Assembly: GCA_029204225.1 (NCBI GenBank)
Contig: CM055103.1
Location: 55,497,592 to 55,561,591, forward strand
Source of the DNA: Diphasiastrum complanatum
Lineage: Eukaryota > Streptophyta > Lycopodiopsida > Lycopodiales > Lycopodiaceae
DNA length: 64,000 nt
Reading direction: 5' to 3'
Part shown: piece by piece, positions 45,601 to 48,600 of the stretch
Numbering within the stretch: the first letter of the stretch is position 1
How the letters are laid out: every line of letters starts with the position of its first letter
Notes under the pieces: model-generated
Seen by the model: the letters and a program-made list of their open reading frames with translations, nothing else
The model's database searches: none
What the model was told of the DNA's origin: nothing
Made by a program: the position numbers and the translations under genes

Positions 45601-48600
45601 AAAATCCCACAATATTAGAGTTCGTGGAGTTCTAGATACACAGGATGCATTGGCTGAAGCTAAACGCTTTCTCGACATCACTCTCGGGCACAAGACAGAG
45701 GGGTTAGACACCGCATGGAGGACCACTAGAGATGCAGCCACACTCATTCTTCGTTTCACCTCCCTCGAGAGTCGTCGAGATGCTTTGCGGTGCAGAGCTA
45801 AGCTACGTGGTACCACTATCTACATGGACGATGACCTCACATATATCCAGGTAGAGGAGAGGCGTAAGGCCTTTCAGGCAGCCCGTGAGTCTAGCAGACG
45901 AGTCATTTACCGAGATGGACGAGTGCGTTTTCTTGACAACGCACCTAGCAGCTCCCAGTGCTAGGGATTTGGGGTCCCCGGGTTTGGGAGTGCCCCGGGG
46001 CCCCACCCACACCATCTCCGGATTGGAGTATGGAATTGTGATGGTTTACACTCATCCTCCATTGCTGGCGACTTGATCGATTTCATCACTGACAGAGATT
46101 TGCTGCTCTTTATGGAGACTCATGAGAGTCAGGAGAGAGGATTACCTATTTTTCCAGGATACAGATGGGATTCCGTGTACAGACTTGAGACTAGATCAGC
46201 TAGCGGTCGTGGATCCGGAGGTGTTGCATGTTTATACAGAGAGTCTCTTCATCCGAGCATTGAGTTCATCAGACACGACGAGCATGCACGGTATATATGG
46301 ATTCATATTACTGGGCAGGATATTGGATTGGACAGGGACCTCTTTGTGGCGGCCTGTTATTTTCCTCCAAAGTCTTCGTCCTTTGCTGAGGGCACAGGTT
46401 CACCCTACCTTGATTTATCGCCTGATATCATCAGATTCGCAGAGCGGGGGCATATTCTCCTCACTGGAGATTTTAATGCCCGAACCTCTTCACGACAGTC
46501 AGAGTTCTATGACATCACCGACCAGCTCCGCGTTCATGCCCTTGACAGCGATGATATGGGAGTTACCAGGATTTCAGAGGACAGCTTGGGACCTACTACC
46601 CCTTACGGTGAGCATTTATTGCAGTTTGGAGAGGCCCATGAGTTAGCCATTTACAATGGCCTAACTTGTTGGCCAAAATCTGGCAGTTATACTTGTCACC
46701 CTCACAGTGGTGGACATAGTGTTGTGGATTATCTCATGGAATCACCATCTTCCATACCTCTCATATCTGATTTTCATGTATCTCCCACCACTCTCTCTGA
46801 TCATTCCTTTCTCTCCTTCGCTATCGGCCGCCTCCCACCTCCCCAACCATCCTCACACCCCCTGCTTACACGGGCACCCAAGTATACATTCAGTTCTCTC
46901 TTTACACCAATTTACCAGGAGTTCCTAACCTCATTGCTCCATTCCTTCCCTCGCGATAGTACAGTCGAGACTCAAGCTGCCTTTCTTAGCACTTCTCTTC
47001 ATACCGCTGCTTCCCTTGCTTTTCCATCTAAACCCCATAAAAGCAGAGGCACCCGCTCCTCATCGATACGACCCCCACACCCCCCGTGGTATGATGTTGA
47101 ATGTCGCTCTCTTCGTCAGCTTGTCACCCATGCCCGCACGCACGATCCTCATCTCCTCCACTCCGCCAGGCGCTCTTACCGTCGCACACTCCGCCGAAAG
47201 AAGCGTATATATGATGACTCCGAAGGAACGCGTCTTGTTGATCTTCTCTTCAGTTCCTCTTCAGGCGCCTTTTGGCGTGAGTTTATCCCTCGTGCTCCAC
47301 CACCCCTCCTGGATGACCTTCGCATATGGACCGAATACGCTACCAAACTATATACCATACCCACTGACGCACCCATCTCTATCTCCCCACGCCCCTCTGA
47401 GTTCACCTTCTTCACATCTGACATGGTACTTACGGCCATCAAGAGAATGAAGTCCCATAAAGCAAGAGATATCGAAGACCTTGAATCTGAACTCCTAACC
47501 CATGCTTCCGACCTCCTTGCTCCCACACTAGCCACTCTCCTCAATTCCGCCGTTGTCTCTGGTTTCCCCTCATCCTGGTGCACCAACATCATCCACCCTA
47601 TTCATAAAAATGGTGATCCCATGATCCCTGGTAATTACCGCACTATCATGATCGGACATGTTCTCACGAAGCTCTATGGTACCATACTCCAGTCTGCAGT
47701 GAGTTCAGAGGCGGAAGCTCGGAGATTACATGCATTGGGGCAGGCAGGTTTCCGATCTCATTATTCTACCACTGACCATATTTTTACACTTCGAGCCTTG
47801 ATCGAGGAAGCTAAGTACAGGAAAGAGAGGGTTTACTGCTGTTTTGTAGATTTCAGGAAGGCCTTCGATTCTGTACCACGCTCCCTGCTCATTCAGAGAC
47901 TTCGTGACCTTGGTTTCTCCACAGATATTGTTTTAGCAGTGATGGCTCTTTATGAGAAGGTCTTGGGATGTTTCCGACATAGCAGTGGCTTATCTGATCA
48001 CATTTGGAGCACCATTGGGGTGAAACAGGGGTGCTCTCTTTCACCGGTTCTCTTTGGATTGTATATTGATGAGTTAGAGCGAGTCATCTCACAGTGTGGC
48101 GGGGGTGGCTGTAGACTTGGCACCATTCTGATTGCTATTCTCCTTTATGCGGATGATGTAGTACTAGTATCCCCGACCAGAGAGGGTTTGCAGAGGCAGC
48201 TGGATTGTTTACAGGGATTTTGTACCAGATGGGGGTTGGGGGTGAACACTGCGAAGACCAAGGTTATGGTCTTCAACACTTCTCGAGCCTTCATGCAGCG
48301 CCAGGAGCTCATCTTAGATGGACAGGCCTTAGAGGTAGTTTCCTCTTATACCTATTTGGGGATACTCTTCTCTGGTCCTACCTTCAGCATGCGGCAAGCT
48401 GCCACCACCCGACTTGGGAAGGGGCATTCCTCTCTTGTTCAGCTTGAGCGGTTCTGTTTCAGGAAGCTCATCCGAGATGTTCGCAGTAAGTGTAGACTCT
48501 TTGATACTATTGTCACCCCCACAGCCTTATATGCAGCAGAGACATGGTGCACCGGCCTCCCTTCATCACACTGGGCCAGCATTTCACGATTGCAGACCAC

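Follow-up and report, generated by a model that had tools for sequence, protein, structure and literature searches.

An in-frame UAG followed by a covarying hairpin joins ORF1 and ORF2 in LINEs of Diphasiastrum complanatum and suggests expression of ORF2 by stop-codon readthrough

The window analyzed here is a 64,000-nucleotide (nt) stretch of the genome of Diphasiastrum complanatum (Lycopodiaceae; GenBank assembly GCA_029204225.1, contig CM055103.1, positions 55,497,592 to 55,561,591 of the forward strand). It carries a long interspersed nuclear element, LINE A, whose two open reading frames (ORFs) occupy a single frame on either side of a UAG stop codon. From the comparisons of sequence described below, LINE A is likely to belong to a varied set of land-plant LINEs in which ORF2 is expressed by reading through this stop. 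Its features, in window coordinates, are as follows.

45161..45964, plus strand: LINE A ORF1, 267 codons plus TAG, with the start placed at the first in-frame ATG past a CT tract; coiled coil, RNA recognition motif (RRM)-like domain, and C-terminal domain
45962..45964, plus strand: UAG between ORF1 and ORF2, the proposed readthrough site
45965..45970, plus strand: spacer GGATTT, 6 nt, between the stop and the hairpin
45971..46004, plus strand: GC-rich hairpin 3' of the stop, a proposed readthrough stimulator
45965..46030, plus strand: linker from the stop to the endonuclease, 22 codons, in frame, without Met and without a stop
45965..49648, plus strand: ORF2 frame, 1,227 codons, with its stop at 49646-49648
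46031..46804, plus strand: apurinic-type endonuclease of ORF2, beginning WNCDG; Pfam PF03372 (Exo_endo_phos), residues 23-280, expect value (E) 6.3e-10
46112..46114, plus strand: earliest ATG in the ORF2 frame, located within the endonuclease and past WNCDG
47600..48364, plus strand: reverse transcriptase (RT) of ORF2; Pfam PF00078 (RVT_1), residues 546-800, E 3.4e-29

Measured from stop to stop, the ORF1 frame extends from 44,537 to 45,964. The initial annotation of this DNA had predicted readthrough at the TAG, and its reading of the layout was borne out: the same frame remains open for 1,227 codons into and beyond the endonuclease, and WNCDG, which begins at codon 23 past the stop (46,031), lies upstream of the first in-frame ATG (46,112). 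It had also described a TAG followed by G, a 6-nt spacer, and an 11-bp stem. Spacer and stem are present, and the G proved to be the first base of the spacer itself. The minimum-energy form of the hairpin consists of approximately 8 bp, a C.C mismatch, and 4 bp, with one extra U-A or G pair at its base that varies with the stretch folded; the 11-bp stem with one bulged C that was drawn earlier is an alternative register. With an apurinic-type endonuclease followed by RT in ORF2 (PF03372 and PF00078), LINE A is an APE-type LINE, and its in-frame UAG, with G next, stands between two coding regions in the manner of a readthrough cassette. Neither ORF1 nor ORF2 matched a protease family in Pfam. 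Near the C terminus of ORF2 lies the sequence QITSFF (window 49373-49390, plus strand), which appears as QITDFF in a metagenomic protein of 41% identity (P0001) and which we take to resemble a PCNA-interacting (PIP) motif.

The stop is shared by amplified copies of the element. When the 1.74-Gb genome was searched with the LINE A junction, the best 40 of 2,725 first-look candidates were scored (99-100% identity), and these 40 matches were spread over many contigs. All 28 of the 40 that were fetched, including the window copy (L004), have TAG, and 24 of the 28 are identical across 69 bases. Eight LINE A copies could be followed over 3.3-kb loci. Seven are interrupted by frameshifts or stops at other points of the ORF1 and ORF2 sequence that was read, leaving the window copy as the only one open throughout this sequence, and TAG is kept in all eight. 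Because the TAG persists while seven of eight loci decay elsewhere, it belongs to the family and not to the decay. A parallel search with the junction of a second family, C (best 40 of 839 candidates scored, 98-100% identity), returned TAG in all 15 fetched slices of the 40 scored. A private nonsense mutation is ruled out by the presence of TAG in 43 of 43 fetched copies from these two families.

The second family is represented in the window by copy C.

26166..27290, plus strand: copy C ORF1 frame, ending in TAG
27288..27330, plus strand: copy C junction with TAG, an identical GGATTT, and hairpin; compared with LINE A, two pairs differ by compensatory changes and two by one-sided changes
27291..27566, plus strand: start of the copy C ORF2 frame, in frame with its ORF1 and later broken by stops and frameshifts

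Over the first part of ORF2, copy C and LINE A share about 55% amino-acid identity. Twelve bases at the junction are the same in both (TAGGGATTTGGG). Within the hairpin, one G-C pair has become C-G and another has become A-U, and with the two one-sided changes included, copy C still keeps all 11 pairs of the bulged-C register. Random redistribution of the copy C substitutions preserves 11 pairs in 0.5% of cases when the whole hairpin is used and in 1.9% when only stem positions are used. By eye, the copy C ORF1 frame (window 26166-27290) has no in-frame ATG ahead of the coiled-coil region, and ATGs in another frame open into a proline-rich repeat.

More divergent junctions came from 20 stretches, each 9.9 kb long, that lie downstream of LINE A copies, from five stretches fetched later, and from the window itself. 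Ten distinct junctions were recognizable: eight have TAG (LINE A, copy C, L034, L037b, L047, L044, L071, and L041b), two have CAG (L035 and L038), and none has TAA or TGA. Three of the ten are decayed (L041b, L038, and L044).

L035:555-557; L048, a duplicate of L035, minus strand; L038:7754-7756: CAG codon in place of TAG, no stop there

The CAG forms are possibly a naturally fused variant or the result of a single-base change. Since CAG stands at the same codon and differs from TAG by one base, it could also be taken as the ancestral state of a once continuous ORF1-ORF2 frame in which TAG is a disabling mutation and the hairpin merely incidental GC-rich sequence. Such an origin is hard to reconcile with TAG in all 43 fetched copies of two amplified families and in 8 of the 10 divergent junctions, or with the covariation of the hairpin described below; these families went on multiplying, so a dead stop would not have been kept. 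We regard a disabling mutation as largely refuted and highly improbable.

The frame across the junction is conserved along with the stop. ORF1 and the endonuclease share one frame in all eight junctions where this could be measured, with linkers of 20-22 codons; that of L044 contains a further stop. Immediately past the stop position, every one of the ten rows of the junction table (which includes L003, a distant relative discussed below, and omits L041b) has GGA or GAA as its first codon; the third codon is GGG in nine rows and GGC in L003. Every TAG row thus reads UAG-G(G/A)A, and linkers begin (G/E)-x-G. The initial annotation had named an ORF2 in another frame, an upstream ATG for ORF2, and a splice that removes the TAG as arguments against readthrough. 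The first was seen in none of the eight genome junctions nor in L003. The second was found in one family of eight: L037b has an in-frame ATGATG (MM) just ahead of the endonuclease, 14 codons past the stop, and the linkers of the other seven families and of L003 are free of Met.

In some families ORF2 could therefore start at an ATG such as that of L037b, whose position fits separate translation of ORF2. Ribosomes would stop at UAG, and ORF2 would be reached by reinitiation or internal entry at a non-AUG codon or at an ATG near the endonuclease, with the hairpin assisting, as in the silkworm LINE SART1. Separate initiation has precedents in the stop-restart of SART1, which involves downstream structure, and in a proposal for mammalian LINE-1 (L1) (PMC5972666), and ORF2 of Zorro3 requires its own first ATG (PMC1965478). 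In SART1, however, stop and start overlap, and here no in-frame ATG exists in seven of eight linkers or in L003. Reinitiation also needs no shared frame, yet all eight junctions are in frame, with linkers of the (G/E)-x-G form. Conservation of frame without an ATG argues against both reinitiation and internal initiation, and we consider separate translation of ORF2 unlikely.

An intron whose removal takes out the TAG and fuses ORF1 to ORF2 in the spliced RNA would explain the identity of frame, and GT/AG combinations allowing an in-frame intron of at least 60 nt occur in five of the six families tested (1 to 9 combinations each). The anatomy of the junctions speaks against it. L047 lacks any AG from the stop to the endonuclease motif, in the other five families no pyrimidine tract precedes the AGs (the 20 nt upstream of each are 40-65% pyrimidine), and inspection by eye revealed no conserved GT at the junction. 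The junction would be missing from any copy derived from spliced RNA, and all 28 fetched LINE A copies retain it with its TAG, but these copies were found via the junction, and spliced ones would have been missed. Splicing was rejected on the absence of acceptor AGs in L047 and of pyrimidine tracts elsewhere, and we hold it to be extremely improbable.

Comparison between families also bears on the hairpin. A covariance model (R1) built from L034, L037b, L047, and L035, with LINE A left out, recovered the held-out junctions of LINE A (E 4.4e-09), copy C (2.4e-07), L038 (1.8e-04), and L044 (0.019), as well as L071 in newly fetched DNA (1.4e-11); a match to R1 tests sequence and structure jointly. 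L041b, which is decayed and keeps TAG, was missed by R1 and enters no pairing count. Pairing was then scored in an alignment (A7) of nine rows, seven with TAG and two with CAG, over 13 pairs. L048 (the duplicate of L035), L005 (a copy of LINE A), and weak or reverse-strand matches (window 50058, L034 minus, L047 plus, and L041) were left out. In A7, 83% of cells pair, changes on both sides are found in 5 of the 13 pairs, and 9 cells carry double changes versus 4.1 in shuffles. None of 500 shuffles reached the percentage paired, the number of double-change cells, or the covariation score, and slid registers were all lower on these measures. When 3' arms were re-dealt among families, the observed pairing was matched by 12 of 720 permutations with six families and 58 of 5,040 with the seven TAG families; the L071 hairpin was counted as 35 nt in the seven-family test and, recounted as 34 nt, pairs 11 rather than 10 of 13. 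An earlier alignment (A6; 12 distinct rows, including reverse-strand and chance matches), now superseded by A7, gave the same picture, with its values for the three measures reached by 2, 4, and 1 of 500 shuffles. The initial annotation had also named a lack of covariation in the stem as an argument against readthrough; with more copies collected, covariation is present, though families are few. The comparison points to a conserved RNA structure a few nucleotides 3' of the stop, with caveats of relatedness and fold energy.

Several results, together with the CAG junctions and the ATGATG of L037b, weigh against readthrough or the structure proposed to stimulate it. Among the A7 measures, the number of pairs with change on both sides was reached by 54 of 500 shuffles and that of further pair types by 333 of the 500. 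RNAalifold retains seven pairs (the outer four and the inner three), two of them with double changes. The families are few and share ancestry, which the shuffles do not take into account, and the pairing model derives from families within the tested set. Compared with dinucleotide shuffles, the LINE A fold is no better over 61 nt (z -0.8; 39/200), and copy C gives z -0.9 (39/200) over 74 nt and z +0.7 (149/200) over 141 nt. The stem of L003 is weak (z -1.1 over 74 nt, -0.3 over 142 nt), and the hairpin of L044, a broken copy, was reached by 161 of 300 mononucleotide shuffles. The fetched copies may include assembly duplicates of one locus, L007 and L009, with equal numbers of gaps and stops, being an example. 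In the databases, no natural ORF1-ORF2 fusion (~1,640 amino acids) was found among 35 matches of 920-1364 amino acids (7986 candidates scored).

Other folding results favor a stem. LINE A reaches z -2.6 over 74 nt (2/200) and z -2.8 over 141 nt (1/200) against dinucleotide shuffles, and six of seven family hairpins beat most shuffles that preserve base composition, not dinucleotides (reached by 0 to 17 of 300). The case for the stem from energy alone is too weak and inconsistent, so the structural claim rests on the comparison between families. Inspection by eye found no downstream pseudoknot partner for the loop GGAG that is common to the families.

What the junction would join can be seen from the predicted structure of ORF1, in which no Pfam family scored above cut-off. 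An AlphaFold2 model built from four ORF1s (266 amino acids; mean predicted local distance difference test [pLDDT] 71, predicted template modeling score [pTM] 0.41) has a helix at 30-120, followed by an RRM-like beta-alpha-beta-beta-alpha-beta arrangement and then alpha-beta-beta. Six PDB matches to this model reached E <= 0.001, all of them chains of the human LINE-1 ORF1p trimer (E 3.7e-06 to 4.3e-05), with low TM scores by query (0.31-0.34) and root mean square deviations of 8-9 A. Sequence search alone placed L1 ORF1p at E 0.85, which is not significant. ORF1 is thus predicted to fold like human L1 ORF1p, with coiled coil, RRM, and C-terminal domain, and an ORF1-ORF2 fusion would carry a trimerizing, RNA-binding front end.

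These features support, without proving, the readthrough foreseen in the initial annotation. Readthrough of the UAG probably yields mostly ORF1p plus some ORF1p-ORF2p fusion, a strategy like that of Gag-Pol. For most ribosomes the UAG would end translation and yield ORF1p, an RNA-binding coiled-coil protein of the L1 type; a minority would decode the UAG as an amino acid, helped by the UAG-GRA context and the hairpin approximately 6 nt downstream. We infer both this readthrough and its level; for the inserted residue, Gln would be a first guess, as in murine leukemia virus (MuLV). The product would be a fusion of ORF1p and ORF2p containing endonuclease and RT. Through the shared coiled coil it could join ORF1p trimers and be packaged with its RNA, as Gag-Pol is with Gag.

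In MuLV the UAG is followed by G. This in-frame gag-pol UAG is separated by an 8-nt spacer from a compact RNA structure, and some ribosomes insert glutamine to produce Gag-Pol (PMC4178896). LINE A resembles it in having UAG then G, one frame, a short, unstructured spacer followed by compact RNA structure, and RT in a minor fusion, which in LINE A is proposed. MuLV has a pseudoknot, and its fusion is cut by a protease (PMC4178896). LINE A differs in its 6-nt spacer, its hairpin, the lack of a Pfam protease, and its identity as a non-long terminal repeat (non-LTR) element. Plant RNA viruses of the barley yellow dwarf virus (BYDV), tombusvirus, and necrovirus groups likewise extend a protein into a second domain through a UAG with stimulatory 3' RNA pairing (PMC4132726, PMC5009743), although the pairing required in BYDV, a virus, is more than 700 nt away, and in LINE A the local hairpin was the only structure examined (PMC4132726). 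In Tca2 of Candida albicans, a stop that may have a pseudoknot on its 3' side likewise stands between gag and pol, but Tca2 is an LTR element and uses UGA (PMC2194720).

Among LINEs, SART1 also couples ORF1 and ORF2 at a stop with RNA structure downstream, but it restarts at an overlapping start codon, whereas LINE A has a single frame and no ATG there (PMC5972666). Mammalian LINE-1 shares the predicted ORF1p fold and an APE-type endonuclease plus RT in ORF2. Its ORFs lie 63 nt apart, and a mechanism of termination-reinitiation has been proposed for them, in contrast to the in-frame continuation through UAG in LINE A (PMC5972666). Excerpts of two reviews (PMC5972666, PMC5009743) name reinitiation, stop-restart coupling, 2A, and frameshifting as routes used by non-LTR elements and do not mention readthrough. 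No report of readthrough between the ORFs of a non-LTR element was recognized in the open full-text literature, judged by title and start of abstract, with subscription papers, preprints, and Repbase outside this scope.

A scan of genome contigs extended the comparison to L003 (27% identity), which is filed as a bacterial metagenome-assembled genome (MAG) but is a eukaryotic LINE by its genes. Its ORF1 (373-1461) ends in TAG, and its ORF2 (1462-5091) continues in that frame, reaching WNFNG without an intervening Met. The junction reads TAGGAATTTGGC, and a predicted stem begins 8 nt past the stop. The UAGGRAUUUGG shared by L003 and LINE A, seen in this one distant sequence, hints at a deep origin. 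It is conceivable, though we put this forward tentatively, that a deep LINE lineage spanning land plants and at least one distant eukaryote uses a cassette of UAG-GRA, spacer, and hairpin, in which the fusion would be the only source of RT and a fixed ratio would tie the enzyme to the ORF1p particle; some members would have exchanged the UAG for CAG and become permanently fused. In the first third of L003 ORF1 (L003:373-1461) lies the 2A-like motif GDVETNPGP, and L003 may use both 2A and UAG readthrough.

Two further relatives, L001 and L002 (best-segment identities of 42% and 45%), are on contigs of a MAG labeled Trichormus; both are 5' truncated, with no junction present. The cyanobacterium Trichormus lives in the fern Azolla, and these contigs may thus be fern DNA. 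Host DNA contamination is the probable reason for eukaryotic-type LINEs such as L001, L002, and L003 in bacterial bins. Scans of viral contigs found no relative.

Elsewhere in the window, LINE copies are arranged head to tail between (TC)n tracts (44669-44731, 49843-49930, 53436-53517, 26027-26084, and 30889-30972). The 3'-end motif AATAAAGCTTTC reaches at least six TC/CT units within 80 bases at 13 of 14 places, counted in the window plus 25 fetched stretches, many of which were picked downstream of LINE A, suggesting that insertion may be targeted to TC microsatellites. Other observations in the window are a DUF659 fragment (22417-22839, minus strand; E 1.9e-20), a weak callose synthase-like FKS1_dom1 match below the cut-off (18790-19221, minus strand; E 5.9e-04), and pieces of retroelement protease and RT (41910-42995, plus strand).

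How LINEs produce scarce ORF2 protein is a long-standing question. If the conserved cassette acts as proposed, non-LTR elements would have converged on the Gag-Pol strategy of retroviruses, and an ORF1p-ORF2p fusion enzyme is predicted. The junction offers a short sequence for testing, and natural variants of it, including several hairpins and the CAG forms, are already at hand. A plant genome would then contain a readthrough signal in at least dozens of near-identical copies (40 scored of 2,725 candidates), which would be useful for understanding how UAG is decoded.

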